From assembly GCF_019649055.1 (NCBI RefSeq), contig NW_026570244.1, forward strand, positions 1,116,001 through 1,180,000: a DNA stretch of 64,000 nt. Reading direction: 5' to 3'. How positions within the stretch are numbered: position 1 is the first letter of the stretch; every line of letters begins with the position of its first letter. A model generated the notes under the pieces. The model saw only the letters and a program-made list of their open reading frames with translations. It was not told where the DNA came from and did no database searches. The translations under genes and the position numbers were made by a program. The stretch comes from Paramacrobiotus metropolitanus (taxonomy: Eukaryota; Tardigrada; Eutardigrada; Parachela; Macrobiotidae). This document shows, one piece after another, positions 14,831 through 60,439 of this stretch.

Positions 14831-15041
14831 ATAATAATATTATTATCATTACGGCACAAGAGCAGACAACCCCGAGGGGACGTCAAGTCTGGTCGAACAA
14901 AAACATTTAAGCGCTAATGTAAATACTTAAGACAGATCTGAGTAGAAATTTAAAGGCAGGTACAGAACTTGCATCAAGAATTTTGCGGTTAACAGCAATA
15001 ATTTATCAAGCAGACGCATTAATCGAAATTCTATAGTCGTC
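14831..15041 (-). repeat. 211-bp LINE 3'-end copy, left flank of the Maverick
   Basis: Identical base for base, as far as I can read, to 29425-29635 and in the same orientation. The minus-strand reading ends in an AT-rich tail (TAATGATAATAATATTATTAT), like a LINE 3' end. It directly abuts the left Maverick terminus. Confidence 0.85.
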
Positions 15042-15042
15042 A

Positions 15043-15185
15043 GAAGAAACAGTATACTGTATAAACATAAGATGGCGTTGGTTACGTCATAAACTGGAGT
15101 TGGGAGCTGGACTTTCTAGTTACAGTTCCCGGTTGTACTTTGTACTTGCAGCTCCCAACTGCAGCATATGATTCAGCACAACTGC
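15043..15185 (+). repeat. left terminal inverted repeat of the Maverick
   Basis: It matches the reverse complement of about 29280-29420 with scattered differences, roughly 80% identity by eye. It contains an inner inverted pair (GTTGGGAGCT and AGCTCCCAAC) and then a short tandem ACTGCAGCATATGATT repeated twice. Confidence 0.85.
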
Positions 15186-15700
15186 AGCATATGATTACTG
15201 CATATGTACACTGTATAGAAGTACACTAACTAATTTACTCACTTACTGATAATCACACACACACACGCTGGTGCATCTGCTGTGCATACCTCAAGGATGC
15301 TCGCAGCCCAGATGCAGCTACCTGTGCAGCCGTGTTGCACGCGTGCAAGTGGTTGTTTACATTCTTTACCGCATGGAGCGGCATTGGCACATTAGCGCAA
15401 CTGGCTCGTCAGCGATGGTGCTGCATACCATGCGCGTCTCTTATTGATTGAAAACACTTATAGTAATGCTGCGCACTTATAATATACAAATTATTTGTCA
15501 ACTTATCGAGTAGTTTAATTGCTTAACTGGATTGTGCACGGCTTATATATAATTGTGAAACTTGACATGCGCCCAATGGTTGGAGTACTGTACGGATGGA
15601 TGGATGGTACTGTACTATATGGATACTACTGTACACTGTACAGTTATATTGGTTTACTTTCACTGCTTGATTCAACAAGTTGTTTACATTCTTTTACACT
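15186..15700 (+). other. Maverick subterminal region with a decayed repeat of the next gene's first exon
   Basis: A block at about 15350-15415 (TTTACATTCTTTACCGCATG, then ACTGGCTCGTCA) resembles 15679-15737, which holds the first exon of the small spliced gene. The two are about 330 bp apart. The upstream copy gives only a short frame from 15374. Confidence 0.5.
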
Positions 15701-16229
15701 ATGGAGGAGCACTTTAACGCATCTGGCTCGTCAAAGCCTTTCAACGCATAGTAAGTGAAATATAATTACTTTTCAGTGGATATTACTAGCTGCTCTATTC
15801 TCAATTTATTTATACATATATAATCATGGAAACTAACAGGTACGATGGAATATTATCTTCTTTATTACTGTACATTATGCCTGTAGTGTGTAATCAATTT
15901 TGACAATTATTTGCAGTCTACTGCGTGCATGCTTATGCGTGCGTGCAGATCAACTGGAAAAAGTCCGCCAGGGTCGCTGCAAAATTTTTTCCACTGGAGC
16001 CAAAGCCACATTTCTGTTAACGATTACTCCGCTAATTGCAGAATTTATGAATTTCTTGTACACGAAGTAAGTGAAGCAAGTGTTTTTAGTTTATATTACG
16101 TTGTAACCCATGCTGTATTTGTCATGTTTACATAGTTTCGGGGCTGCTATAAACAACGAGGGTTTGAGTGGAAAAAGTTGGCCTGAACTTCTCAAAGAAT
16201 TTTTCCACCTTGTCAACGGTATGGCGTAA
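15701..16229 (+). CDS. small spliced Maverick gene of unknown function
   Basis: I do not recognise this product. Three exons, 15701-15750, 15917-16066 and 16136-16229, are separated by introns with perfect GTAAGTG donors and CAG or TAG acceptors. They join in phase to about 97 residues. The first exon is short and polar (MEEHFNASGSSKPFNA). The second includes a basic stretch and hydrophobic ATFLLTITPLIAEFMNFLY. The third ends KEFFHLVNGMA. There is no signal peptide or cysteine pattern. It lies next to the left terminus and reads away from it. The agreement of phases and splice sites is the main evidence for a real gene. Confidence 0.5.
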
Positions 16230-16514
16230 TTTGCTGATTCCGCAGTTTCCTGATTACAAAAATTATTATTATATGCTTGTATGTTTGCTCAATGCTTTTA
16301 TAACAAAAAAATACATTTCGTAATAAAATCTAATTATCATAATTAATGAGTAATGTATTGTACAGTATTGCACTGTATATGTAGTATGTACCAGATACTT
16401 TTAAGGGTAAACGTTCTTTACATTTCTTAATAAATTTAGCACTAATGCTTTGTAATGCCAGGTAACAGAAATATGCAACGATAGCTTTTTTTGTAATTTT
16501 ATTTACTGCTGCAT
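16230..16514. other. AT-rich spacer between convergent Maverick genes
   Basis: It lies between the small plus-strand gene and the minus-strand TBP gene, so both 3' ends fall here. No frame is supported. Confidence 0.5.
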
Positions 16515-17042
16515 TTAGGTTCCTAATAACAGGCGCAATTCGTTTTCAGCAGTATGAAGAGTATCAGCATCTTTTGCACCTAATAAATTAATTTTTCCAG
16601 AATGGAAAATCATCGCCGTACAACTTTGAAGCCGGACTCGCATGGCCGGAAATATTTCAGGTTCAAACATGGCATCAGCTTTTGCTCTTATTGAGTTGTA
16701 TAATTTCTCTAAACTAAGAAATTTCCCAAAATTGAAAGTGGCGACAATGTTAACAATTCTTGGATTCTTTAACGATGCTTTTTGATAGCCGTATTTTTGC
16801 AGTTTCCGGTAATAGTGATCCAATAACGCGAGAGCATCACTGATGGACTTTGCACCATTAACTGTGATCTTGCCGTTGCGGTACACTTGGCAGTGCGATT
16901 TGTAAGGACGAATGGAACGGAGAAGAAGCCCGGAAAATTTATGTGGTGCATAATGAGAAAGCGGAGCGCGTTCGGATAAGCTGGGTAAGTCAATTGCGCA
17001 GCCAAGGTCAGCAGTTGCAACAACGTTAGTTATTTTCGCCAT
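16515..17042 (-). CDS. TATA-binding protein homologue encoded by the Maverick
   Basis: A single uninterrupted 175-residue frame. It is the TBP core and nothing else: two tandem repeats of the saddle fold. Repeat 1 has NVVATADLGCAIDLPSL, HKFSGLLLR and VYRNGKITVNGAKS. Repeat 2 has VNIVATFNFGKFLSLEKL, EPEIFPAMRVRL and IFHSGKINLLGAK. These align with the canonical N-I-V-A-T, Y-P-K-R-F, S-G-K-x-x-x-T-G-A-K and E-P-E-L-F-P motifs. In eukaryotic TBP four phenylalanines kink the DNA. Here three positions are Phe and one (in VYRNGK) is Tyr. In the family, TBP nucleates pre-initiation complexes at TATA boxes. TBP-like proteins are known in some giant DNA viruses, but I do not know it as a standard Maverick gene. 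Its reading frame is intact, unlike several neighbours. The start is the first Met before the repeat. The next minus-strand gene upstream overlaps it by 17 bp. Confidence 0.88.
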   Translation of the reverse strand: MAKITNVVATADLGCAIDLPSLSERAPLSHYAPHKFSGLLLRSIRPYKSHCQVYRNGKITVNGAKSISDALALLDHYYRKLQKYGYQKASLKNPRIVNIVATFNFGKFLSLEKLYNSIRAKADAMFEPEIFPAMRVRLQSCTAMIFHSGKINLLGAKDADTLHTAENELRLLLGT

Positions 17043-17484
17043 TCAGCCAATTTGCAAATGTCTCCGCTTTTGAAAGCGTTGTTTGTGGTAATGAAGTAAG
17101 CTCCTTAAACTTCGGGCACCCAATGTCTTCAAGATTAAACACTTCAGGCAAATAATTTTCCAAAATCTTTTGCTTTTCCAATCCTTTGGCAAAAAACGTC
17201 AAACGCGCAGGTCGTTCACCAATAAGCTCCAGCATATCCTGAATCGCCCTGGCGATGTCCAAGTATAAATAATCTCCACGATTATGCCAGACAAGTCCGT
17301 GTGAGTGACGCGATTGGCTCCTAAATTCAACGCGGTAACGATTAAAGTGGGATGGAATGGTGAATGTGTAGCACCTGCTAACACTAGTTGGGCAATCACA
17401 AAATGCCAGCTGTTTTATAAGCCGTTGGGAGCCAGCGATAAACCAATCAATATCTAAGACAACCCTCCGCTTTGAAGTCTCCAT
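17026..17484 (-). CDS. unrecognised Maverick protein, paralogue of the gene at 23800
   Basis: A 152-residue intact frame. It shares a pattern with the product of 23800-24339: an N-terminal acidic V-V-L-D-I-D-W, a central F-A-K-G-L-E-K-Q-K-I-L motif, a G-C-P-K-F-K-E-L motif and a C-terminal K-A-E-T-F-A-N-W-L. Early acidic residues and a later F-x-K-G-x-E-K motif would be compatible with an RNase H-like or DEDD exonuclease fold, but I see no full catalytic signature and the function is inference only. It is divergent from the ATPase gene, with about 40 bp between the two start codons, and precedes the TBP gene on the same strand. Confidence 0.75.
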   Translation of the reverse strand: METSKRRVVLDIDWFIAGSQRLIKQLAFCDCPTSVSRCYTFTIPSHFNRYRVEFRSQSRHSHGLVWHNRGDYLYLDIARAIQDMLELIGERPARLTFFAKGLEKQKILENYLPEVFNLEDIGCPKFKELTSLPQTTLSKAETFANWLNGENN

Positions 17485-17524
17485 TCTGTTATCGGTACGC
17501 TAGCAATAGCTCCGCCCTTTGGAA
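17485..17524. promoter_or_regulatory. probable bidirectional promoter region of the Maverick
   Basis: Only 40 bp separate the divergent start codons of the minus-strand block (unrecognised protein, TBP) and the plus-strand structural block. Both transcripts must be driven from here or from within the genes. No TATA box is evident in the gap. Confidence 0.35.
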
Positions 17525-18220
17525 ATGGATTCCTTAAATAGGTATCCGCGCACGACAGCTGATTTGAGATTCCGACTACCCGCTTCAGTCCTTGTTGTGG
17601 GGCCAACGACTTCGGGGAAAACGACATATGTGTCAAAATTAATTATGGAGCGCGATAAATTATTTGACCAACCATTTGGACGAATTATTTTGGTGTACGG
17701 AGAAATGCAGCCAGCCTACGAAGTACTTCAGCGCAAAGTCCCTTGGATTGAACTGACAAAAAATATTCAACAAATTGTGGAGGATGAAAATTATTTTGAT
17801 GGTAAACAAAATATTTTGTTGATACTGGATGACGTGGCAAGTGGTTTGGTGAAAAATGAGCATTTGGCTAAACTCTTCACTCAAAAAGTACACCATAAAC
17901 GGCTTTGTGTATTTCTATTATTCAATAACCTATATAAACAAGGGTCTGCTATGCGAGACGTGCATCTTAATGCACAATATCTTATACTGTTCAAAAATAA
18001 TCGTGATGTGAACCAAATCAAGATTCTAGAAAGGCAGACTGGTTTAAAACATCTCAGCGGAGCTTACGAGGAAGTCGGCCAGGAACCATTTCAACCTCTC
18101 ATTTTGGATATGAAACCGGACACACCTGCCTATTTAAGGATTCGTTCAGCAATATTACCGGGAGAGTTGACTAAAATTTACATTAATCCACATACGACAA
18201 ACTTGCCCAAGAATGTGTGA
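17525..18220 (+). CDS. A32/FtsK-HerA type genome-packaging ATPase
   Basis: About 231 residues, intact. Walker A is GPTTSGKTT near residue 25, Walker B is ILLILDDVAS near residue 100, and a sensor-like FLLFNNLYKQG follows. This is the packaging ATPase shared by Mavericks, adenovirus-like and giant DNA viruses, which drives DNA into capsids. The ATG at 17525 is the first in frame; a TTG two codons upstream is not needed. The stop overlaps the start of the next gene. Confidence 0.93.
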   Translation: MDSLNRYPRTTADLRFRLPASVLVVGPTTSGKTTYVSKLIMERDKLFDQPFGRIILVYGEMQPAYEVLQRKVPWIELTKNIQQIVEDENYFDGKQNILLILDDVASGLVKNEHLAKLFTQKVHHKRLCVFLLFNNLYKQGSAMRDVHLNAQYLILFKNNRDVNQIKILERQTGLKHLSGAYEEVGQEPFQPLILDMKPDTPAYLRIRSAILPGELTKIYINPHTTNLPKNV

Positions 18221-18542
18221 TCAGATTTTAAAAGACTTTGCACCGTTTCTCCTTACCCTGCGATCGCTGAAACCCAAGCAGCGTCGTTTTCTTTTGGAAA
18301 ATATTTCGAAACGACAACTTCGCTGTTTTGAAGAAATTTGTTTGAATTTGGTAAAGAATTCAGTGCCTCTTACCACCGATCAGCTAAAGGTGTGTCAGCG
18401 TTGGCGTCGACCATTAAAGCTGATTGCTCTCAAAAAATATCCTTTACGAAGCAAGAGGGAAATTTTATTACAGCGGGGAGGATTCTTACCTGCGGTTCTA
18501 CCTGTATTGGCAGCTGTTTTGGGAACTGCCTTACTGAAATGA
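18213..18542 (+). CDS. short conserved Maverick protein with basic body and hydrophobic C-terminus
   Basis: 109 residues. Basic motifs such as LKPKQRRFLLENISKRQLRC and CQRWRRPLK are followed by a glycine start and hydrophobic tail (GGFLPAVLPVLAAVLGTALL) that looks membrane-active. I recognise the pattern as recurrent in Mavericks but do not know its function. A small virion-associated or membrane-interacting protein is possible. It overlaps the ATPase end by 8 bp and the next start by 4 bp (ATGA). Confidence 0.7.
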   Translation: MCDQILKDFAPFLLTLRSLKPKQRRFLLENISKRQLRCFEEICLNLVKNSVPLTTDQLKVCQRWRRPLKLIALKKYPLRSKREILLQRGGFLPAVLPVLAAVLGTALLK

Positions 18543-18952
18543 AACCGGAAGTGCATTATATTGTTCCCGCGAGCGAAATGAAAAGACTTGCAAGTGACAC
18601 GGTTGGTCGTATTGTAACGGATGTCCAATTACAACAGCAGCCTACTGAAGTTGTGGATATTGTAAAACTGGACGATTTGATGAGAGATATAATTTCACGG
18701 AATACGCTAAGCGAATGGGAGAAAGCGGAACTGTTATCAAGAAACTTGGCTCGCTTTTTGGCGCTGAAAGAGTCGGCGTTCGGCCCTGACCAAATGGTTA
18801 TTCCGCCTCCAGCATCTGTGCCCCCCATTCCAGTACAACTATTAAAGAAGCCGTGGGTACCCCCTAATATGCCTGATCGTATGTTAGATGCTTTCCTCCT
18901 ATTCCACCTGCACCCCGGCAAAACGCAAGCGTGCAAAGCGAGAAGTATTTGA
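18539..18952 (+). CDS. conserved Maverick protein, 3' end probably frame-disrupted
   Basis: About 137 residues from the ATG overlapping the previous stop. The body is helical and charged (VHYIVPASEMKRLASD, VDIVKLDDLMRDII, LSEWEKAELLSRNL) with a Pro-rich stretch. After about 18885 the frame becomes unlike protein. Another frame running to a TGA at 19032-19034 carries a very basic, nuclear-signal-like KRKRAKRE and a plausible C-terminus, so one or more small indels near 18885-18925 are likely. No function is assigned. Confidence 0.6.
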   Translation: MKPEVHYIVPASEMKRLASDTVGRIVTDVQLQQQPTEVVDIVKLDDLMRDIISRNTLSEWEKAELLSRNLARFLALKESAFGPDQMVIPPPASVPPIPVQLLKKPWVPPNMPDRMLDAFLLFHLHPGKTQACKARSI

Positions 18953-19109
18953 TGAAAACACTTTACAAATCGAAGGTCCCATCGGTTCAAGAACCAAATA
19001 CCAGTTCAACTGGATGACTATTAATAACAAATGAGTGGTGGTGGATGCGTTCCCTTTTCTTTGTCTTTGGGTGAAGGTATGACATGGAACTGCACATCTA
19101 GCTGTTGCG

Positions 19110-20078
19110 ATGGATCAAGCAGTAGCGACGACGAATACGATGGCCAATCTACTGCTACGACAAGCGTATCTGAACCCTCAGCACCCGGGCAGCTTAACAG
19201 GGATTCAAAAGTTTCGCAGCCACTTTCCACAAGCACCAAACTATCAACAAACGCGGGAACAGCTGGAGCATCTGGATCCATATACAGTCCACAAATCTCG
19301 ACGCAAAAGGTTCAAAAGAAACCCCGTAGTTGTCTCAAACCTAGCGGAGCAATATCAAGCCGATCTGGCAGACATGTCAAAATATGCGAAGCAGAACAAA
19401 GGATACCGTTGGATATTGTTTGTGATCGACGTCTTCAGCAAGAAAGTGAGCTGTCAACTACTAAAGAATAAAAGCGGTCTAGAAGTAAAACTTGGGTTGG
19501 AAAAGGTGTTTGCAGAACTCGGAGCTCCCATTAAATTGCAAACGGACAAAGGTCTTGAATTTTACAATAAGGATGTTAAGAGTTTTTGACAGCCCAAAAG
19601 GTTTTTTTGTTCTCTTCTGAAAATAAAGCAATCAAAGCATCCTTAGCTGAAAATGGCATACGCAATCTCAAGAAACGAATATGGAAATTATTTCGACACC
19701 GACAGTCTAAAGTGTACTGGGACGTTCTGGGAGATTTGGTAAACAGTTACAACAACGCAATTCATTCTTCGCATAAAGTCACGCCTAATGAGGTTAGCCA
19801 GTCCAATTCTCTGCAAATATTCAATCGACTATATGCAGAATTATTATTGGGAAAGCAGAAAAGCCAAAGTACAGCGTAGGTGACACAGTACGAGTAGCCA
19901 TCGACAAAACACTTTTGAAAAAGGATATGAGTCAACATTTAAGGAGGAAATTTACAAGATACACCAAGTATTACCACAACAGCCCGAGCCCCTCTACGTA
20001 TTACTGGATGAAGACGGGGACTTAATTCGCGGGAAATATTACGAAGCCGAACTCAGTCGTGTCAGAAATGGCTCATAA
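19110..20078 (+). pseudogene. retroviral-type integrase (rve), frame broken three times
   Basis: The DDE integrase that inserts Maverick DNA. The first piece (19110-19589) has an HTH-like basic region and the first two acidic residues (in QADLADMSKY and LQTDKGLEFY). The second piece (from 19586) supplies the catalytic Glu (in IKASLAENGIRNLKKRIWK), with spacing near 35 residues. The C-terminal SH3/chromo-like part continues from about 19861 and then 19923, to a TAA at 20076-20078. The breaks fall at a T run near 19577-19581, an A run near 19858-19862 and an A run near 19917-19922. Each fits loss of one base. All catalytic residues are present, so this is either a young decay or sequence error. 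Confidence 0.85.
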
Positions 20079-20998
20079 TAGCTTTTATGTCACGCTTCCA
20101 TCTGATGCCTGTATGCAACAGTTCCCAAAGAATAATGCAGCTGAATGGACCACAAAGTTAAAGAGCATGATATCGCTACCGGGACAATGGGAAATGGCAT
20201 TGGTGGAAATACAGTATCCTAATTCAATGTACAATTTACCCAGTCCCCAAACGTTGCACGTTGACCAAATTACTTCTATGGATATCAACGGTGTTTTCGC
20301 TATGGAGAGGGACACAATTACGGTACCTGCAGGGATCTATGAGAAAAGTGACATCATTAATTTTATCAACAGTAAAGTACCACGGTTAAAGCCATTTCGC
20401 GATTCTACAGCGAAAGAACAGGCGGCTTTCCAACTAGAATTATTTGCAACCGAGCCCAAGCTCAAAGTGAAATTTCCCAGCGTACGTGTTTTTCTGGATT
20501 TTCCTCCCTCATCTTTGCATCTATCCCGTATGCTTGGATTTAAAGAACGACGATTTTCTGCTGCACAGTCTGAACAATATGAAAATTTTTAATGGAAAAA
20601 CGAATTTTGCTTCCGCAGCTACAACACTGTCCGACCAGCAGAAAGCCCTGGCAGAGTTGCAACTGTTGGAGACGTCTATAACAATGACAGCAGATAAGCC
20701 CGTAAATATGCACATTGGGAACCAGTCAATTTTTGTCTACTGCAACAAGTGCGACTACAATATTGTGGGCGATGAAACTATGCAGCTTTTGCGCGCTTTC
20801 CCCATTAAAGCAAGTGTTCCTCGCTTCGAAATTGTTTCCGAAAGGTTTGAGGATCCACATTATTTACCTGTTTTATACGATCGACTGGACACTATTGATA
20901 TCAACATTGCAACTGATCTCGGAGAAGCGGCAATTTTTCAGACTGGAAAGTCAATGGTAAAGCTGCATTTCCGCCCCATTCAGTATTACTATCGCTAA
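20068..20998 (+). pseudogene. penton-like minor capsid protein, one frameshift
   Basis: It begins MAHNSFYVTLPSDAC and continues with NNAAEWTTKLKSMISLPG and WEMALVEIQYP, the typical start of the single jelly-roll penton protein of Mavericks and adintoviruses. About 310 residues in two frames: 20068-20592 and then a second frame to 20998 (end VKLHFRPIQYYYR). The switch falls in AAAATTTTTAATGG at about 20580-20592 and corresponds to one extra or two missing bases. It overlaps the integrase stop by 11 bp and precedes the next gene by 3 bp. Confidence 0.8.
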
Positions 20999-21001
20999 AA
21001 A

Positions 21002-21469
21002 ATGCCCGTAATCCTCTTTGAGCCGTCACCATCGTTCTATCTGGATTTATTTGCGGGGGCCGCCACGGGCGCTAGTAGCCAGCACGGCTATGGAGCCGTC
21101 ATGACACGCTATCGCGGGAGTTTAATGCAAAATGGCAGCGGATTTATGCTACCTAATTTCCTGCGCGCAATGTTTAGTAAATTAGCGCATTTTGCTGCCC
21201 CGGTTATTAAAGCAGCGGCACCACATGCCAGAGCAGCAATGGAAGCAGCAAAGCCCCACTTACGCGACGCAGCGACAACAGCTTTAAGTGAAACATCCAA
21301 GAAGGTAGGAGAGAAAATTTCGGAAGCGTTAACTGCGCAACCTCAACAGCAAGGAGGCATCAAACGGCTCAAGCAGCAGCACAAGAGGACAAAAAAGATA
21401 AAGAAACCTTCCTTCCGACTTAAACGGCTTAAACGGATTCCCCCAAGAGAATTTGAGGACGCATTTTAA
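21002..21469 (+). CDS. basic virion-type protein (adenovirus pVI/pX-like position)
   Basis: 155 residues, intact. A Gly-rich N-terminal part (QHGYGAVMTRYRGSLMQNGS) is followed by an amphipathic Ala-rich helix region (APVIKAAAPHARAAMEAAKP) and a very basic C-terminus (RLKQQHKRTKKIKK). Position between penton and major capsid genes and composition suggest an internal virion protein that lyses membranes or binds DNA. That role is inference. The stop lies just before the major capsid start. Confidence 0.65.
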   Translation: MPVILFEPSPSFYLDLFAGAATGASSQHGYGAVMTRYRGSLMQNGSGFMLPNFLRAMFSKLAHFAAPVIKAAAPHARAAMEAAKPHLRDAATTALSETSKKVGEKISEALTAQPQQQGGIKRLKQQHKRTKKIKKPSFRLKRLKRIPPREFEDAF

Positions 21470-21470
21470 A

Positions 21471-22804
21471 ATGGCTTTTATTTTGGAAGGAAGCGTGCCA
21501 GCTATGCAGGTCGAGTCGGATTTATTCTCCGTTCCGGCCACTCTAGCGGATTTTGTGCGGACAGAAGAAGAACGCATTCTACCAACATCAGGGCAAACAG
21601 AAGAAATTAGTTCTGGAGAAATTTCCTTTTACATTCCCCCTTCAACGTCGGCGCTGCTAGTGCTACCGGAAATTACGCTAGAAATGGATATTGCAATCAA
21701 AAAGCAAATTGCAGGACTTGGTGCGGCTACGCATATTGAAAACACGGATCTGGTAGCACCAGTGAACTTGATTGCGCATTCTATATTCAGCTCGGTAGAG
21801 GTAACAATGGCCAACCGCCTGATAACTAATTCCACCCCATTATATGCCTACCGAGCGTACTTGGAAAATTTGTTGGGGTACACACCGGCTGCCCTAAAAA
21901 GCCAGGCAACAAGTGCTGGATTTTATATAGACACTCCCGGGTACCTAGAAGATCATGCCAATAACGCTGGAGAAGTAACGCGAAAAGCTATGTTTGTGAC
22001 CAACGAGTACGTCCCGTTCAGCGCCAAATTATGTACGGACATTTTTCAGCAGGGAAAAATTTGATCACCGGTGTACCGCTACATGTGCGCCTCATTTTGA
22101 ATAAGCCGGAATTCTACCTGCGTTCATATGCCAATCTTCCAGTGGATACCTTTAAAGCATACATTCGCAATCCGCGGTTGTACGTCAAACGCTTTGTGCC
22201 TAATCCGGCATATTTGTCTGCGCTTACTGCCCAATTATCGACAAAGACTGTGAAATACCCTATTGAGCGAGTGTGTATGCGTGTTAATGATATTGGTATG
22301 ATTCAGAGCACAGTGCTGGCTAATTTACATATTGGAGCAGTACCCAAATGTGTTTTTGTGGGATTTGTAAAAAGCTCGAGTTTTCACGGGCTGCGCCGAG
22401 GTAATCCGTTTAACTTTGAACATTTCAATCTCAACTATATAAGTGTCGAAGTCGACGGACAGTCGTATCCCGCACAAGCCTACCGACCAAATTTCGCCAC
22501 GGGTGATTATTTGCAATCATATGACGGTCTGTTGGAGACGCTTTGCCGCTTGCACGCACCGGACGGGGCGCTGCCTTTCGACCGTAAAGCATTTGCGGAA
22601 GGATTTGCTATTTGGGGATTCGATCTGACACCTTCACGGACAGGCCGGGGACCGATGAGCACCGTGCGCCAAGGAAATCTATCAATCCGCCTGCAGTTCG
22701 CCGCCCAATTAACTGAACCAATTATGGCCATTACGATGATGGTGTGGGATAATATTATTGAAGTCAATTCACATCGCCAGCTAATTGCGGATTTTACAGC
22801 GTAA
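21471..22804 (+). pseudogene. double jelly-roll major capsid protein, one frameshift
   Basis: About 444 residues in two frames: 21471-22064 and 22056-22804. Typical features are an N-terminal PPSTSALLVLPEITLEMDI, the STPLYAYRAYLENLLGY segment shared by Maverick capsids, and a C-terminal AITMMVWDNIIEVNSHRQL. The break is in GGGAAAAATTTGATC at about 22055-22063 and fits the loss of one A. Otherwise the protein looks complete. I chose ATG 21471 because the upstream in-frame ATG overlaps the preceding gene. Confidence 0.85.
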
Positions 22805-22934
22805 AAACCTAACGTAAGTGTTGTAAGACTTAAAAATGCCGTGTTGTTGCCTGCGCGGTAAGCTTCAGGGTCGCCAGCGGGGGTGGGCGCGCCGTCGGCC
22901 CCTTTTGACGCTGAAGAGAATCGTGACGGATGTG

Positions 22935-22986
22935 GTAAACAATGGGCGACCGGAGCGCTTCGCGCTCTCGGTCGCCCGTTGTTTAC
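22935..22986. other. 52-base near-perfect hairpin in the Maverick late block
   Basis: GTAAACAATGGGCGACCGG pairs with CGGTCGCCCGTTGTTTAC, continued by AGCGC and GCGCT around a short loop, giving a stem of about 23-24 bp. It lies between the capsid stop (22804) and the protease start. A poly-A-rich stretch follows at 22988-23016. Possible roles are a 3'-end or processing signal, an RNA structure or a replication or packaging element. Confidence 0.75.
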
Positions 22987-23051
22987 AGGACAAAAAGGAA
23001 AAAAAGAAAAAAAAAATTCAGATTTTATTTTGAATGCAGATCGGCACTAAA

Positions 23052-23573
23052 ATGGACACTGCTGAAATCGACCACGTGCTACGTTCAAGTACCGTGACGA
23101 AAGACGCTTTTATTGGTGTATTTGCTGCGGACATGTTACCACCGTCCCTGCCAATGAAGCTGCCATGGGCATGCGTTGTCAATACTGACGAAGCTGCAAA
23201 GCCAGGCTCGCATTGGTTGGCGTTCTACCAGGACGTCCCGGGAAAATTGGAATATTTTGACTCTTATGGTCACGAACCGAGATTTTACGGCATCCATATT
23301 GAAAGTTTTTGCAAGAACGCCGAGTTAGTTATTTCGCAAGCGCATCGTTTACAAATGGAATGGAGTACCGTGTGCGGACAGTACTGCTGCTTTTTTATTC
23401 TAAAACGATGCTCCGGCGAGTCATTTACCTCTCTTATTCATTTGTTCACCAATAGCAAATCGTCGAATGATCGAATGGTTTGTGCTTATATTAATCATTA
23501 TTTTGATTTGAACACTGTAATTCGTGATCGCTCTATGATAATTCAGTCTGTTTTCCGTCAAATAATGCAATAA
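23052..23573 (+). CDS. adenain-like cysteine protease
   Basis: About 173 residues from ATG 23052 (an in-frame start at 23034 is also possible). It has the adenovirus-type order His (GSHWLAFYQD), acidic residue (YFDSYGHEP), then Gln and Cys (VCGQYCCFF). In Mavericks this enzyme matures capsid precursors. The frame is intact. It follows the hairpin and precedes the second copy of the unrecognised family. Confidence 0.9.
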   Translation: MDTAEIDHVLRSSTVTKDAFIGVFAADMLPPSLPMKLPWACVVNTDEAAKPGSHWLAFYQDVPGKLEYFDSYGHEPRFYGIHIESFCKNAELVISQAHRLQMEWSTVCGQYCCFFILKRCSGESFTSLIHLFTNSKSSNDRMVCAYINHYFDLNTVIRDRSMIIQSVFRQIMQ

Positions 23574-23799
23574 AATCTGGCCATCCAAACCCTTACGTAT
23601 GAGTGTAGGTGTAGTTACTTTGTACCGCAACAAATTGCAGTGCAACAAAATATTACACTACAGCAACATTGCGCTGCCATGTGGATGTTTTGTTTCGAAA
23701 TATAACAGGACATCGCATTTTGTACTCGTGGTCTTGCCAAAAACATGTGCTTCATAGCAGTTTTTCCTTACTGCATCTATTTCTATTTGGCGAAGCAGA
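23574..23799 (+). other. spacer upstream of the 23800 gene
   Basis: No supported frame. It probably holds the promoter of the downstream gene. Confidence 0.4.
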
Positions 23800-24539
23800 A
23801 TGGTTTTTCGAATTGTTGTGGACATCAAATGGTATAATCGTAATGAGAAGTCAATTATAACGGAACTGGCAATTAGTTCTGTTGATTTCCATTGTCTATA
23901 TTACACCCGATTTTTGCTTCCTCCGGATAATTACATTGTTAGCAAGTACGGCATCAGTTCCACGAATGTCGATGAAATATTTGTTAAAGCTTTCTCGGAC
24001 CTGGAGATTCAGATAAATCGAGCGTTCAGAAACTATCTGCAAAACGTTAAAGACCCCCTAAGCGTTGTTTTCTATGCGAAAGGTTCAGAAAAGTGCGGTA
24101 TTATCCAGGATTTATTAAAATCTGATTGCATCAACTTGGACTCGTTAGGCTGCCCGCGCTTTTCCGATTTATGCAATGACAGATGCTACAGTCCCAACAA
24201 AGCACAGGCTTACTCAAACTGGATGCTGACTCAGTATCTAAAAGTTCCAAAAAATGCTTGCTTTGCCGCATGCCGATCCCCGACACTGGCGTTCGTCATC
24301 ATCGACGATGGCGCAGTCGAATTTCAAGACCAGATCTAAATTACTATTCGGGTACGTGCTCAAATTTTGATGTTCTTTTTTAAAACATTTCTGACAAGGT
24401 TTACGAAATTGCAGATGAACAGGGTAACAGGTGCTGCATCCGTTGTGGAGCTGTATTCATTTCCGGTGAGGACCGCACTGAACAAAAAAGGATCGCGGAT
24501 ATTAACATGCCTGACATTTTTAGCGCATGAATCATTGAG
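23800..24539 (+). CDS. unrecognised Maverick protein, paralogue of 17026-17484, with possible spliced zinc-binding end
   Basis: The 179-residue frame 23800-24339 shares motifs with the minus-strand protein at 17026: an acidic start (VVDIKW), FYAKGSEKCGIIQDLL, LGCPRFSDL and NKAQAYSNWML. After an A run at 24249-24254 a different frame gives C-L-L-C-R-M-P. Beyond a good intron (GTACGTGC donor at about 24351, CGAAATTGCAG acceptor near 24413) comes R-C-C-I-R-C-G-A-V-F, ending at a TGA near 24532. Two C-x-x-C pairs suggest a zinc ribbon. Whether this belongs to the same protein (needing a one-base shift) or to a separate small gene is unclear. No function is assigned. Confidence 0.6.
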
Positions 24540-24642
24540 CGATCTGTTTGGAAATTCAGATGACAACAAAAATGCTGTAGCGGAATTTATTCATATATAA
24601 TCTGAGTATCTTGGGTGCATCTTTGAGACTAGTAAAATCACG

Positions 24643-27600
24643 TTGCCGGAGCTCGTCTTTACGATGACGCAAGTACCTGATCGTGTACAGGGCAACTCTA
24701 ACGCCTGTACTAGTAACCCACAGTTTGCTGATACCGCACTTTTCAATCATGATTATGCTCTTCTTGATCATAATTATACTGTACCACGAGCTGATCTGCC
24801 AGCTTTGAATATAGCTGACGAAGTCGATCCAGACTTGAATGACATTAAAGATTATTATGTGCTCGAAAATATCGGAGCAAAATATTCCCAGAAATTTTCA
24901 GTTTCGTTCGAAACTTACAAATGTACAGTGACGGGGCTGGATAATCTATCGTTCAAGTATGCTGTTAAAACGATAACACTCGTTTTGAAAGATATTCTGG
25001 AGAGTGTGATTGCTGCGATTCCAGCGCATAACCTGGTGCGAATCCGCATGTATCAAAATGCTCTGCAGTATCCAATTTGGATGCCACCTATTCGGCGGGA
25101 CCAAATAACAATTGAACGGTGGATGACGACAATAAGGCGGATTCTAAACTCTAATCAGGCTTTTCTGCTAGACGAATCATTTGAACTGTCAGTCCAGCAC
25201 ACTGATTTGCCATCCGGATCATGCAGAAAAAATGTATCAAAATTGTTGCAGCGGATTTTAGACAACAAAAGATGTATTACCCAGATTCGAAATACGGACT
25301 GTTTGTGTATGGCCAGGGCTATAGTTGTGGCACAAGCGCATGCAGATGGCGACAAAGAGCTGTACACAAAGCTTTACCGAACCAAAAAGTTGCAAGACCA
25401 GAAGACAAAAGAATTATTGTTGACTGCCAACCTGCCAAACAGAGAATTCAACGTGCAAGATATTCCCCGCTTTGAAGAAGTTTTACCGAATTATCAGTTT
25501 ATTGTGGTATCTGTGGATCATGGAAATTCTATCGTCTACTGCGGCGCCTACTGCGAAAAGCGAATTATGCTGCTGCATCACGATCAACATTTTGATGTTT
25601 TAACATCTTTACCGGCCTATTTTGAGCACCACTATTACTGTTACCGTTGCATGAAAGGCTACGATCAAAGACAGTATCACCGCTGCGAGTTCAAGTGCCA
25701 CCAGTGTTTGTCTGCAACTTGCAAAATGAATAAGCAAGAAACCATACACTGTCTGGACTGTAACCGCGATTTCTATGGGCAAGATTGTTTTGACAGACAC
25801 CAAGCTGGGAGCAGCACCATCTGCGCAAATTTTTTCATTTGCCGTGAGTGTAAAACCTTTGTCTCTATGGTAAATCGCCGTATGAAGACCAATTACGATA
25901 CAATTCATGGTGAGGACAATGACCAGGACCACGATATTGCTGAGGAAATCGAACTAGATGTTGACGATCAGCAACATCGATGTGGTGAGGTTTTTTGTGC
26001 GACTTGCTCGTTATTCTATATGCCGGAGAAAAACCATGTGTGTTATATGAAACCCGTGGAATTTACGGATAAAGAAAAGGCCAAGCACCATAACGACAAG
26101 CTGGCATACTTTGACCTGGAAACATATCAAGACGAGAGTGGAGAATTTAAAGTCAACCTAGCGGTGATCGCGACAAAAAATGAAAAATTTATTCTTCCAG
26201 AAAACGGTAATATTAACGGCGACATTTCACAAGAACTTGGCGATTTCATTTTCAGTGAGCGTTTCCGTGGCTACACATTTATGGCGCACAATTTGAAGGT
26301 AGCGAAAGTCAACACGTTAAGTAACTTCTTTATTAAATAAATTGATAATTTATTTTTCAGGGATTTGATGGATACTTCATTTTGAATTATCTCGTGAAAA
26401 ACGGCGTTATTCCACGTCCGCTTATTTTCAACGGGAGCAAGGTTATGCAGATGGACGTGCCCAAACTCAAAATAAAATTTCGTGACTCTATGAACTATGT
26501 ACCATCATCGTTAAAAAATTTTGCGAAAGCATTTGGTTTGCAAGAAACCAAAGGAGATTTCCCACACAAACTTAATAAGCCTGAAAACTGGAATAAAATA
26601 ATTGCTTGGCCCGATCGTCATGACTATGGCTATCAGTCTATGAAAAAGAAAGAACGAAAGCGCTTCATGAAATGGTACCGCAAAGAGCGACGCCGTCACA
26701 GGAACAAATTCGACTTTAATGCACACTTTATCAAGTAAGCTAAACCCTTATGCTATTTACAGAATCGAACTTATCCGATTCGTTTTAGGTATTGCTCACA
26801 AGATGTCCTCATTTTGCAACAAGCGTGCGAAAAATTTCGAGCGCTTTTCCAACAGGTAACCGATGGATTATGCCCATTTGCGTCTGGACTAACCACACCC
26901 GGCATGTGCAATTACTTTTGGAGAGCGCGAATGCTGAAGGAAAACCAAATTGCGTTGATCGGCCCTCCTGGTCAGGGCAAAAAAGTCATCTGTCAAAGGA
27001 GAGCGTTGGCTACGCTGGATTGAAATGGAAAATGATGTAAAATTGCAAAAAAGAGCATCGAATCGGTCACTGGACTGTGGATGGTTTTGATCGGGATACA
27101 AAAACCGCTTACGAGTTTTTAGGTTAGTCAGCTCGATATAAATGTTATCGATCACATTCAAAACGCAATTCACCTTCAATGTTTTTGTGCAGGATGTATG
27201 TGGCACGGCTGCAGCGAATGCACAACAAAAAGCACGCTGCATCCCTTTCTGAAACGGCCAATGGAGGAAGTCAACAAAGCAACTGCCTTACGCCTTGAAG
27301 CTATCAAAACTATGGGCTATTCCGTAGTTTCGATCTGGGAACACGACTATGATAGCCGGCTCACTACTGACCTGGAATTTCAGAAAATAATTCAGTTGAC
27401 CGGTATTGAAGAACCTATGCACCCCCGAGACGCATTTACTGGTGGCAGGACAAACGCTATCAAGTTGTACCACAAGTGCGATCCTGGAGAAAAAATCTAT
27501 TCGCTCGACGTTATCAGCGAATACCCTTATATTAACAAAATCTACCTTATCCGGTGGGACCGCCTGTTATCATTACTAAAGATTTTCCGCCTGTGGAGAG

Positions 27601-28950
27601 TATTTTTGGAATAATTAAATGTCGCGTCATTCCTCCACCGTCGTTGTTTTTACCGGTGCTACCTTACAAAACTGATAAACTGACTTTTCCTTTATGCGCT
27701 AAATGCGTGACGGAACGCGTAAACGAACCATGTTCTCACGATGATGAGGACAGGGCTCTGGAAGGAACTTGGTGCACTCCAGAAATTCATCGAGCATTAG
27801 AAGTTGGCTATCGTATCGATAAAATATACTCGGCTTGGCACTATCCAGAACAAATGCAGTATTTATTCAGAGAATACATTGACCTGTTTTTGAAGCTGAA
27901 AACGGAAGCTTCTGGATATCCACCACAGTGTCAAACGGAAGATGAAAAAGACAGATATATTCAAGAATTCCTTGCTAAAGAAAATATTCTACTGGATAAA
28001 AAGAATATTGCGAAAAACGACGCATTGAGAGCTCTTTGCAAGCTTATGCTAAATAGTTTTTGGTACACATGTGAACTTATTTAATTTGTGCACGTTCATT
28101 ATTTTTACGCTCATTGCAGGGGAAAATTTGGTCAACAGGAAGACCGATCCAACACGGATATGGTGGAAAAGAAAGAGGTATTCCATGATTACTTGTTTTC
28201 TAACAAGTACGAAGTCGCCGGGTTCGATTTGGTCACCGATGAAGTTATGGCAGTTCAATACCGCTCCAAGAAGGACTACATTGCGACGAGCAAAAAGACC
28301 AATGTTGTTATCGCAGCTTTTACGACTGCGTACGCACGGCTACACTTATTAAAATTCATGGAAATGGTTGGAGACCGTTTGTTATACCACGATACAGGTG
28401 AACGCGCGAAACAGTATTATCGGCAAATTGCTCATCCACTTCTTTATTTTGCAGACAGCATTTTCTACATCCATAGAGACGATTTGCCCGATCCACCAAC
28501 GGGAACGTGCTTGGGTGATTTGTCCTCGTCTTTACAGCCTGACGAGTACATTGACGAATTTGTAGCGCTTGGTAAAAGAATAATTATCTAGATAATAATA
28601 TGCGAGCAACTTAAAATGTTAATTCTTTGTTGTCCCAGGACCAAAAGCTATGCTTACCGGACAAATACTGGATGTGAAACGATAAAAGTCAAGGGATTTA
28701 CGTTGACACGGCAAGCGAAAAACAGCTAAACCTGGAAAGCCTGAAAGAGATGCTACTGGAAAGCCTGGCACCACCGGACCAGCCAAGCGGAATTACCGTG
28801 AATTATCCGTTCAACATAACACGCAATAAGCGCAAGCTGGAAGTTTCGTCGGCGGAAATTAACAAACGATTTAAACTTACTTACTCAAAACGTAGAATTG
28901 TTGACTCTGATTTTAACACTCGCCCATGGGGTGATGTTTCGATTGAGTAA
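24643..28950 (+). pseudogene. protein-primed family B DNA polymerase, seven exons, several frameshifts
   Basis: This is the Maverick replicative polymerase. Exons: 24643-26298, 26361-26734, 26789-27122, 27193-28062, 28120-28397, 28455-28571 and 28639-28950. All six introns are GT-AG and phase-compatible. An N-terminal domain is followed by a Cys/His-rich zinc region (CYRCMKGY through HVCYM). Exo I is YFDLETY. Exo II (H-N-L-K, then G-F-D) is split by intron 1. Exo III begins exon 3 (YCSQD). Motif A is DVISEYP; the usual form is D-x-x-S-L-Y-P. Motif B (N-S-F-W before, G-K-F-G after) is split by intron 4, and motif C (D-T before, D-S after) by intron 5. Frame breaks lie near 26980-26995, 27045-27050, 27540, 28643-28646 and 28720, mostly in A runs. 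A start at 24664 is also possible. Confidence 0.9.
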
Positions 28951-29230
28951 ATCATCAACTTCCAGTGCGGTGCAATTGTTAATAAAGGTCCTGACACTGT
29001 GGCTTGCTCCGAAAAATGCTTCCAGCAGTATTATAAGAATTAACATAACAATAATGCAAGTCCCCACCACGGCTTCGCAAAAGTTTTTTTTACACACAAT
29101 GCGCGCCATTGTAACAAAAGTCACTTGTTTTTTTTTCTAGATTTTATGCGTTCCGTGGTGCCTTTAATACTTACTTCCTCCCGAAAGACTGTAATTAGTT
29201 AACTATTGTATAAAATTTTAACTACATATA
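28951..29230. other. Maverick right subterminal region
   Basis: No convincing gene. A (TA)n run at about 29226-29247 precedes the right terminal repeat. Confidence 0.5.
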
Positions 29231-29279
29231 TATATATATATATATAGTATTATAGTATGCACTATGGACATACACTATA

Positions 29280-29420
29280 CAATTGTGATGACTCATATTC
29301 TGGAGTTGGGAGCTGTAGTCATAAAGTCCAACCGGGAATTGCAGTTGGAAAGTGCAGCTCCCAACTCCAGTTTATGACGTAACCGACGCCATTTTATGTT
29401 TATACAATATACTGTTTCTT
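29280..29420 (-). repeat. right terminal inverted repeat of the Maverick
   Basis: The reverse complement starts AAGAAACAGTATATTGTATA and matches the left terminus at 15043-15185 with scattered substitutions. It includes the same inner GTTGGGAGCT and AGCTCCCAAC pair. Confidence 0.85.
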
Positions 29421-29424
29421 AATG

Positions 29425-30330
29425 ATAATAATATTATTATCATTACGGCACAAGAGCAGACAACCCCGAGGGGACGTCAAGTCTGGTCGAACAAAAACAT
29501 TTAAGCGCTAATGTAAATACTTAAGACAGATCTGAGTAGAAATTTAAAGGCAGGTACAGAACTTGCATCAAGAATTTTGCGGTTAACAGCAATAATTTAT
29601 CAAGCAGACGCATTAATCGAAATTCTATAGTCGTCTCTTTAATAACTCTCCCCGCCCGTGCAGCGTCGACTTTTGCCGGTTTTCGTAAGTTGTAGTGCAC
29701 GGTGTTGTCTTTCACTTTGACCATGTCCAGGAGGTAGTCGGGAAGCGAAAACTGACTCTTGTTTCAGATCTTGTACAGCCACACCGCATTGCTCGGTGGA
29801 ATATGTGAGGAATATATGTACCCAACTTCCGATACAGTTCCGGAGTAACCGGCATCTTGTAATCAATGATGGTTTTCAGAGCTTTGCGTTGTGGTCCGGC
29901 TAGCTTGTCGCGCTCAGTCGAAGACGCTGCAGACCATAGCGGCGACTAAGGTGCGATATGGCAACCGAAGCAGGCGTGTGCTGGCGCGATAAAGACATTG
30001 GCGCTGTGACATGCAGAGCCCTTGTTGTGCTCGTTTAATCATGGCAATGCCGAAATTCCCTTTCCGCTGTACCTTTCTGAACTGATCATTCCACTTCAGG
30101 TGGATATCGATTTCAACGCCGAGGTACCGTACAAGTTTTGATATGCCAACAAGTTGACAACGGACCAATTGATGACGACTTCTGGATCCGGTTGGATATT
30201 GCGGTCCTGAACATACATATGTATACCGCTTGGCATTTCTTTTCGTTTACGAGTATGTGCAGCATATTTTCTTCCATAACCTGGCCGACACGTACCAGTC
30301 CATCGTTCACTTTAGCGGCAGCTATGCTTT
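29425..30330 (-). mobile_element. 5'-truncated non-LTR retrotransposon (LINE) fragment
   Basis: Read on the minus strand, about 30170-29915 encodes the end of a reverse transcriptase palm/thumb: LVRYLGVEIDIHLKWNDQF, then downstream basic residues. This resembles the L-G-V-x-I-D-x-x-L-x-W motif of LINE enzymes. Frames shift repeatedly, so it is dead. The 3' 211 bp (29425-29635) is the direct repeat also found at 14831-15041. The 3' tail is AT-rich (TAATGATAATAATATTATTAT). The 5' limit is uncertain. Confidence 0.75.
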
Positions 30331-30870: not shown

Positions 30871-31207
30871 ATGGAAGTGGCATTGCCGCGGTTTCGTCGC
30901 CTCTTGGCTTCGGTGGATGACAAGGCCATCAGTTACCAGAACACCGTCACGGTGCTAACGGACGAAGGAGCTTGGTGGCTGGGCTACATTCAGGACATGG
31001 ACGGCAGCAGCATCTTCGTGCATTTCGATTCCACCCTGGTCCCGCCCTGCTGGATCCCCGAGCACCGCGTGTGGCCGCAGTTCTTCCTGGATTCCGAGCA
31101 CTTTTATCGCACAAGACAGCCTGGAGGGCGGGTGTGGGTGGCGCTGCGCGATGAAGACAACGGATCCTTTCGCTTCCGCCCCGCCACCTGGCTTGATTCG
31201 GTCTCAG
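30871..31207 (+). CDS. N-terminal exon of the local F-box family (orphan exon)
   Basis: It encodes MEVALPRFRRLLASVDD, then YQNTVTVL, WWLGYIQDMDGSSIFVHFD, CWIPEHRVWP and VWVALRDEDNGSFRFRPATW. This aligns closely with the first exon of the gene at 60440-63876 (YQNTVVVW, FWLGFIQDIHGAFVYIHFD, ALRDEDDGPFRFRPA). The region resembles a Tudor/Agenet-like small barrel; that is inference from the W-x-G-x-I-x-D and H-F-D pattern. The exon ends at a GTGCGT donor (31208). I found no matching F-box or C-terminal exons downstream before the foldback at 32.2 kb, so the gene is probably truncated. Confidence 0.6.
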
Positions 31208-32199
31208 GTGCGTATTCACCAACAAAGAATCCGTTTTTGAAAAATATGCATTAACCTGATCAGACGAAGCACTTTCATAATTCGAGCACGCCATATGAAC
31301 CAAAAAATATGTCTATACTTAATTCAGAATAGTATGGACTTGTAGAAATTAAGTACCGTTGTACAGATCAAGTACTTATAAAAACCAAGTACTATTAAGA
31401 ACCATATGGACTTATAAAAAATGTCAGTACTCAGCTTCTGAAGCAGAGAGTCAGTGTGCTTTAATGCGAAGGGACGCTGCTTGTGTTCAGGAAACGTTTT
31501 GTATTGGTAAGACACCGGATGAAGTGTATTATGTGCTGACATAATGAGAACTGTGTAATTTTGAGTTTTGCTAATGTTAATGTGAATAACCCAATAAATA
31601 CTATCGTGCCTATCAAAAAAAAGTAGTGTTGCCCCGACAAAAAATGCAAAATTATTTTCAGAATATAACGACCTTTTCAAAAAACTTGAGTTAAACATCA
31701 AAAACAAGCCGTACGATTTGAACCGGCAAATTAAAATCGTTGTCAGAGCATAACCACCTTTACTCTAGATGCTACAATAAGCTTCGTTAAGTCTCTCAGA
31801 GCACAGAATTTCCCTGATGCCGTTTCTGGGTGTGATACTTTGAATAATTTCCGAATCCTCAAATCCAATACCGCGCGCGTTTGGTGCCGATGATGTAGTT
31901 AATAAACCATTTCTGTGCAAAAAACAGTTAATTAACGCTTCCAGTTGTAAGTTAATAAACGACAGCCGGTCAGCGAATTGATCAATACTCTGCACACCAT
32001 TTATACGCAAAATTTTTAATTCTAATGAACCCGTAATTAATTAATTTTTTAATTAGACATTTTAACACGTCGTGGCAACTTATAAGTTCTGTTAGAGACT
32101 TATGCGCCCTTCGCGCACTTTCTAGTTTACGCTACCAGAATGTGTTTGGGTGAGCAATAAACACCAATTATAATATTATTAATTAGTTATTAAGATTGT
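31208..32199. other. intergenic, nothing firm
   Basis: A minus-strand frame at 31765-32010 (start MRINGVQSIDQFADRLSF) is faintly protein-like but has no recognisable family. The rest is AT-rich. Confidence 0.35.
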
Positions 32200-60140: not shown

Positions 60141-60439
60141 CACCCATAACTTCCCAACCGGCCGGAACTGTAAGTACTGTACCATATAATAGTGTAGAGT
60201 ACTTCCCAACTGTACTGTACGATATAAAATCATATAATAATATTAGCTACTTCTATACGAGTAATGAGTATCGATTCATGTTACTTTGTAGATTCATGGT
60301 GATTAAAGGATGCACATGTGACCACTGACCTCTCTGCTTCAGCCGTTCAACGCATGAGCCAAAGTTGCTGTTGGCATCGGTACGGCGATCGTTTGCACGG
60401 AGATCAACGTACAATAAATATTCCTGCATGGTGTCACAG
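60141..60439 (+). other. upstream region of the third F-box-family gene
   Basis: GTCACAG directly before the ATG at 60440 looks like an acceptor, so a 5' exon may lie upstream. No coding exon is identified. Confidence 0.35.

Follow-up and report, generated by a model that had tools for sequence, protein, structure and literature searches.

The window, by which the whole analysed stretch of 64,000 nucleotides is meant, contained a Maverick/Polinton at 15042–29420 that held a gene for a TATA-binding protein (TBP). The left end of the element, AGAAGAAACAG, was located at position 15042, and the right end lay near 29420 with its last bases altered. The left terminal inverted repeat (15044–15184) was 141 nt long and 86% complementary to the right terminal inverted repeat (29280–29420), its inverted arm. 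The TBP gene occupied 16515–17042 of the minus strand, exactly the frame named in the preliminary description, and encoded 175 amino acids from ATG to stop with two TBP repeats. Its start was overlapped by 17 nt by a partner frame, unkL (17026–17484, minus strand; 152 amino acids), which had no Pfam match. The other genes were located on the plus strand: a packaging-type ATPase (17525–18220; 231 amino acids; Pox_A32, E = 7e-4, below its cut-off), a short frame like adenovirus core protein X (pX; 18213–18542; Adeno_PX, E = 2.4e-4, below its cut-off), an integrase core (rve) that was incomplete in the window (19110–19589; E = 4e-7, just under the cut-off), a putative penton-like minor capsid gene (20068–20592), a putative major capsid gene split between two overlapping frames (21471–22804), an adenovirus-type protease (Peptidase_C5; 23034–23573; E = 4.2e-6, over its cut-off), unkR (23800–24339), a distant paralogue of unkL with approximately 27% identity, and a PolB region in several frames (24664–28591), where DNA_pol_B_2 was matched at E = 9.9e-9 in 26445–26738 and at 0.0024 in 27198–27614.

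The frames at 20068–20592 and 21471–22804 were presumptively labelled as penton and major capsid genes. The former had no Pfam match but shared 45% identity with an open frame at the same place in the gene order of a related element, L095; the putative major capsid protein of the window and that of L095 gave no match in PDB sequence and Pfam searches. In L095, TBP, ATPase, pX-like, rve, penton-like, putative capsid, protease, and PolB genes were all open and followed in one order, and Pfam confirmed TBP, rve (4.5e-14), and PolB (DNA_pol_B_2, 8.5e-22). The ATPase had 28 metagenomic relatives, three of them with PF04665. The TBP gene had been described as intact among several broken neighbours; its integrity was upheld, and the putative capsid gene (21471–22064 and 22031–22804) and PolB were indeed divided into frames, but the two nearest neighbours, unkL and the ATPase, were open as well.

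The left end sequence was common to eight copies whose flanks were unrelated. A genome search with the right arm returned 40 places, from which 15 inward-facing pairs could be formed; 13 of these, some of them broken copies, enclosed a TBP match, and the two others were a 4.3 kb derivative on contig C73 and C7:1635410–1649003. A 6-bp target duplication was observed in six of the seven sister copies whose flanks were read, one of these duplications lying inside a TA repeat, and one copy had none. The flanks of the window copy showed no 6-bp target duplication; in its place, a 211-bp perfect direct repeat (14831–15041 and 29425–29635) flanked the element, and its right junction bore a 26-nt palindrome. 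Based on the arms, the duplication, PolB, the integrase, and the protease, the carrier of the TBP gene is a genuine Maverick/Polinton, so that the location first proposed for the gene, which the packaging-type ATPase also bears out, was correct. Elsewhere in the 64-kb window, a DHHC transferase frame was found, together with two related frames (30871–31254 and 60428–61330) having a YQNTV...GxIQD stretch in common, of which the second had no Pfam match; these two may perhaps belong to a lineage-specific host family.

Pfam analysis of the element TBP revealed PF00352 as its sole match, in two stretches (E = 1.9e-37; 127.4 bits against a cut-off of 22.9). A PDB sequence search returned 35 distinct sequences, all TBPs or TBP fusions, with a best E value of 7.4e-21. 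The motifs expected from the preliminary description could be read in the translation, namely NVVAT (6–10), NIVAT (98–102), FSG (36–38), FPA (131–133), NGKITVNGAK (56–65), SGKINLLGAK (148–157), and EPEIFP (127–132), as could three of the four DNA-kinking phenylalanines (yeast F99, F190, and F207); the position of F116 was occupied by Tyr. The AlphaFold2 model built from a 51-row alignment reached a pLDDT of 97.3 and a pTM of 0.88, and Foldseek matched it to 44 PDB chains at E ≤ 0.001, every one a TBP. Query-normalised TM scores to the DNA-bound structures 1ytb, 1qna, and 1cdw were 0.89–0.91 (0.91 for 1qna and 1cdw). The window frame is thus a true two-repeat TBP with, in its predicted structure, the TBP saddle. 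A chance frame as the origin of the TBP reading was ruled out by the Pfam, PDB sequence, and Foldseek matches.

An unkL-family frame or its remnant was located directly upstream of TBP on the same strand at all 28 distinct element places among L001–L038, a set that consists of the best matches and is biased towards the type of the window. Genome-wide, unkL could be detected within 2 kb of 76 of 165 listed TBP places. The unkL model (pLDDT 86.9) had an oligoribonuclease as its best fold match (E = 2.5e-4, TM 0.66, rmsd 4.8), and an oligoribonuclease-like (DnaQ-type) fold is predicted; compared with DEDDh exonucleases, the five invariant columns of the unkL alignment A3 contained no acidic residue. 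The occurrence of two distant paralogues, unkL and unkR, within one element was also observed. A single unkL–TBP frame (C144, C60:922382) was considered as a class feature and proved to be a local change of frame.

The distribution of the gene was determined in the genome of 169,799,020 bases in 533 contigs; each query returned approximately its best 150 matches, and the counts are therefore lower bounds. After the host TBP (C4) and a divergent frame (C66) were set aside, at least 221 element-type TBP places were present, broken copies included, and 132 of 150 listed TBP matches had no internal stop. A genome-wide intersection of match coordinates for TBP, the ATPase, and the putative capsid gene put 163 of the 221 listed TBP places no more than 15 kb from a place with either of the other two genes, and conversely TBP lay within 15 kb of 131 of 147 listed ATPase places and 115 of 137 listed capsid places. 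Among the 98 listed places having both the ATPase and the putative capsid gene, 88 had TBP within 15 kb, compared with a mean of 2.7 and a maximum of 10 in a control shifted by 50–400 kb over 500 rounds. The other 10 of the 98 places lacked a TBP match over this distance, and TBP was also missing from one full-length copy bounded by arms; both observations count against the explanation preferred below. TBP co-occurs with the ATPase and the putative capsid gene in most elements, and it is best explained as a core gene that resides in a large lineage of Mavericks/Polintons. The suggestion that other Mavericks be searched for the gene thus had a positive outcome within this genome, and capture by one element only was ruled out by the co-occurrence and arm-pair counts. 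The TFIIB domain gave six matches at three loci only, indicating that TFIIB, unlike TBP, is not carried along by the elements.

The position of TBP relative to the ATPase differed among the element classes: divergent and approximately 1 kb away in the type of the window, directly divergent in class F, start to start in class G, in line before the ATPase in class H, and approximately 7–8 kb away in class E and others. Several unusual loci were also observed. TBP and ATPase lay in inverted duplications of 3.6 kb (99.8%) at L091/L092 (G000:C13) and 2.4 kb (99.4%) at L093/L094 (G000:C36), which may be head-to-head copies, long terminal repeats, or assembly artefacts. The class I TBPs (L050, L051, and L052) carried charged, Ser/Thr-rich tails of about 100–190 residues after the TBP domain, and the class B TBP L039 (~430–550) appears to contain a short intron immediately ahead of the domain.

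Pairwise dN/dS within classes ranged from 0.04 to 0.28 in 12 of 14 pairs and was undefined in the remaining two. In the comparison of class A with the window, 8 of 11 comparisons consisted of 0–1 synonymous and 1–3 nonsynonymous changes, too few to prove selection; among these eight near-identical comparisons, L007 gave 0.88 on four changes. Two older lineages gave 0.13–0.14, one gave 0.33, and L020 gave 0.95; the value over all class A variants was 0.37. The scarcity of changes among the very young class A copies and the L020 value count against the preferred explanation. The element TBPs are under purifying selection.

The yeast TBP positions that we take to contact DNA, TFIIB, TFIIA, NC2, and Mot1 were mapped onto the element TBPs, columns 203 and 205 being counted from the Phe anchor (yeast numbering is used throughout). 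The kinking residues F99 and F190 were present in 46/46 and F207 in 49/49 element TBPs, and the F116 position held Tyr in all 40 clade 1 proteins and Phe in eight of the nine of clade 2. Substitutions were found at the positions with which TBP reads the minor groove: T215L in 49/49, L114Q in 48/49, T124N in 47/49, and V203T in 40/49 with R or S in the remainder. In place of L205, the clade 1 proteins had V, M, or I (40/40), and those of clade 2 had N, K, or H (9/9); V122T and V213N were found in all 40 of clade 1. By comparison, six cellular-type TBPs kept T124, T215, L114, V203, and L205 throughout. The TATA preference of yeast TBP can be switched by substitutions at 194, 203, and 205, as in a laboratory variant with altered specificity. 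The replaced residues point to altered specificity and not to another protein family. In the TFIIB-binding stirrup, E188 was kept in 44/46 proteins; E186 was kept in 23/46 only, which counts against the preferred explanation. The basic positions of helix 2 varied among the element TBPs, and the TFIIA, NC2, and Mot1 residues were not kept. From these patterns we infer that bending and TFIIB contact may persist, with a shifted base preference and weakened control by TFIIA, NC2, and Mot1.

Promoter motifs were evaluated over 30 gene starts of three elements. TATTWAA was found three times (117 of 1000 random placements had as many) and TATAWAW twice (337 of 1000), and neither was enriched; the suggested search for shared TATA-like motifs upstream of the element genes established none. 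TATWTAA was found five times (9 of 1000 placements), a motif that was picked after looking. No general or private promoter motif was found in the upstream regions of the element genes, and this too counts against the preferred explanation. More local signals could be observed: TATATAAA or TATAAAA-type boxes occurred 44–84 nt upstream of the TBP domain in 8/8 clade 2 loci, several of which are near-copies, each box having a 4–10% chance by mononucleotide shuffling. A TATA-type box was present in only three of 11 unkL upstream regions, all of near-identical class E, and a TATTTAA was located 56 nt upstream of the class A unkL–TBP pair. The 11-mer CTATTTAAGGA occurred exactly twice in the window, before the unkL–TBP pair and before the pX-like gene, both times inside the ATPase frame; with up to two mismatches, 12 occurrences were found in the window against 18.3 expected, i.e. 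no excess.

The phylogenetic tree was constructed from 23 of our own element sequences (of at least 221 places) and 28 of 39 metagenomic matches (26 element-type and 2 archaeal-type), and a second tree was made without L055, which was left out for its long branch. In the second tree, all 49 element-type TBPs (23 own and 26 metagenomic) formed one clade (100/99) apart from the cellular TBPs, as a phylogeny including the host TBP had been expected to clarify. Host, human, and yeast TBP formed a separate clade (98/88), with the host joined to human at 100/93. The host gene (L010, G000:C4) matched human TBP at E = 1e-85 and is apparently interrupted by an intron; an apparent one-base frame break near its core start was observed in the assembly. 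The excluded L055 (G000:C66:348800–350000), a single extremely divergent TBP-like frame with a branch of 7.4, is possibly a host TBP-related factor. A recent processed copy of host TBP that landed in the element and has no role there could draw on the near-identity of the class A copies, which shows that the class A family spread recently. However, the element TBP was only 26% identical to the host open frame, relatives with 41–52% identity were present in other public sequences, and the gene occurred across divergent element classes. Forcing class A together with host TBP cost 123 log units (p-AU 2e-5), and forcing clade 2 cost 38 log units (p 7e-4), in tests whose groups were picked after the first tree. 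With the host–human match, the 26% identity, and the AU result, a recent retrocopy was ruled out, in agreement with the initial view, and we give it hardly any probability.

Beyond this genome, the metagenomic search with the element TBP provided 39 matches, the source of the 41–52% relatives. Our clade 1 TBPs interleaved with the metagenomic ones, and the gene therefore predates its spread in this genome. The TBP P0021, the unkL P0041, and the ATPase P0046 were each located on a single 1,728-base contig from the same source among the public sequences, so that the trio is probably a block elsewhere too. The sole named relative of the ATPase was a protein of the tardigrade Ramazzottius varieornatus. 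Scans of IMG/VR with the TBP and ATPase alignments gave 118 and 42 pattern matches, respectively, and GTDB prokaryote contigs gave 49, none of which was confirmed; the spread beyond this genome therefore rests on the metagenomic TBPs and the Ramazzottius ATPase. The public-sequence searches yielded no TBP belonging to a named animal Maverick. Within the genome, TBP and ATPase distances were correlated in a set of 20 elements (r 0.86, a value reached in 0 of 9999 permutations), whereas with one element per class (n = 9) the correlation fell to r 0.38 (461 of 9999), which counts against the preferred explanation. Common descent of the two genes is clear within element classes and weakly supported between them. 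The best explanation is that the element TBP was acquired long ago and diversified with the elements.

An own, selected TBP with an altered DNA-reading face means that the elements may direct host RNA polymerase to their own promoters. It appears probable that the TBP is an old resident core gene of these Mavericks, serving as a private initiation factor through which host TFIIB and Pol II are drawn to the promoters of the element. The more specific form of this proposal, in which an animal Maverick lineage with a virus-type TBP and a remade DNA face forms a private Pol II complex with host TFIIB on element-specific promoters, is tentative, and we place its chance a little below even. Under this mechanism, the element TBP would bind and bend DNA at element promoters, whose preferred sequence would not be the canonical TATA box. 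The TFIIB-binding stirrup would be sufficiently preserved for the recruitment of host TFIIB and Pol II, and the helix-2 surface used by host TFIIA, NC2, and Mot1 on TBP would be largely lost. The protein could then be a private factor for starting transcription of the genes of the element itself, perhaps those expressed late.

Two other roles can be weighed against private initiation. TBP often adjoins the packaging ATPase or lies close to a terminus, which would suit a replication or packaging factor whose fold bends DNA at the terminal repeats or an origin, with no transcription role; the loss of the TFIIA, NC2, and Mot1 residues also speaks for such a factor. Yet the near-universal E188 of the TFIIB stirrup speaks against this role, as does the changing position of TBP relative to the ATPase among classes, and we regard it as unlikely. 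Slightly less probable still is a host-directed effector that targets host promoters or ties up host factors and so disturbs host transcription, with no specific service to element promoters; by its residue pattern, a TBP with TFIIB contact but without the normal DNA preference could sequester TFIIB. Against this, the elements have become fixed in large numbers, and a factor that poisoned host transcription in general would come at a high cost. Moreover, the DNA-facing residues are conserved in altered form, which suggests a specific DNA target. Private initiation at element promoters remains the reading we prefer.

The selection of a plain TBP in elements of approximately 14 kb, at more than 200 places of one animal genome, would mean that small virus-like transposons bring their own promoter-recognition factor. 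Maverick transcription thereby becomes a directly testable question, and the element TBPs offer natural variants with altered minor-groove contacts through which TATA recognition can be studied. If the private complex exists, these would be, to our knowledge, the smallest known virus-like elements with a true TBP of their own, and the private TBP would be an old trait, since relatives in public sequences interleave in the tree. The present elements resemble animal Mavericks/Polintons in their inverted repeats, 6-bp duplication, rve, PolB, adenovirus-type protease, and packaging-type ATPase, but differ in the addition of TBP and the partner frame unkL. TBP is not known to belong to the Polinton core gene set, and searches of the open-access literature returned no report of TBP in Mavericks/Polintons.

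A virus-encoded protein of the TBP fold is a feature shared with giant viruses and mirusviruses, which are, unlike the present elements, far larger. The matches in BFVD, giant-virus proteins named TBP among them, were 7–23% identical to and mostly longer than the window TBP. TBP is reported in 59% of mirusvirus genomes and in 0% of Nucleocytoviricota (PMC10132985), the latter at odds with the BFVD protein names. Viral TFIIB, or TFIIB with RNA polymerase, has been described beside viral TBP, whereas the present genome shows no TFIIB amplification. A comparison for the proposed role is found in beta- and gamma-herpesviruses, whose TBP-like proteins BcRF1, UL87, and ORF24 bind the TATT boxes of late genes and are believed to position host Pol II at viral promoters carrying a variant TATA box (PMC4893493); these TATT-binding proteins are counted as a precedent for the preferred explanation. 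However, the herpesvirus proteins are remote mimics of approximately 10% identity that work with five further viral proteins (PMC4893493), whereas the element TBP is a plain TBP by sequence. Heliorhodopsin-containing mobile elements of Cymbomonas are likewise repeated, virus-derived, and eukaryotic, with sporadic TBP genes, but belong to a green alga, have a mirusvirus-like capsid, and look mirusvirus-derived (PMC10675990). Viral TBPs were thus already known, and what is new here is that a lineage of Polintons has conserved a TBP of its own.
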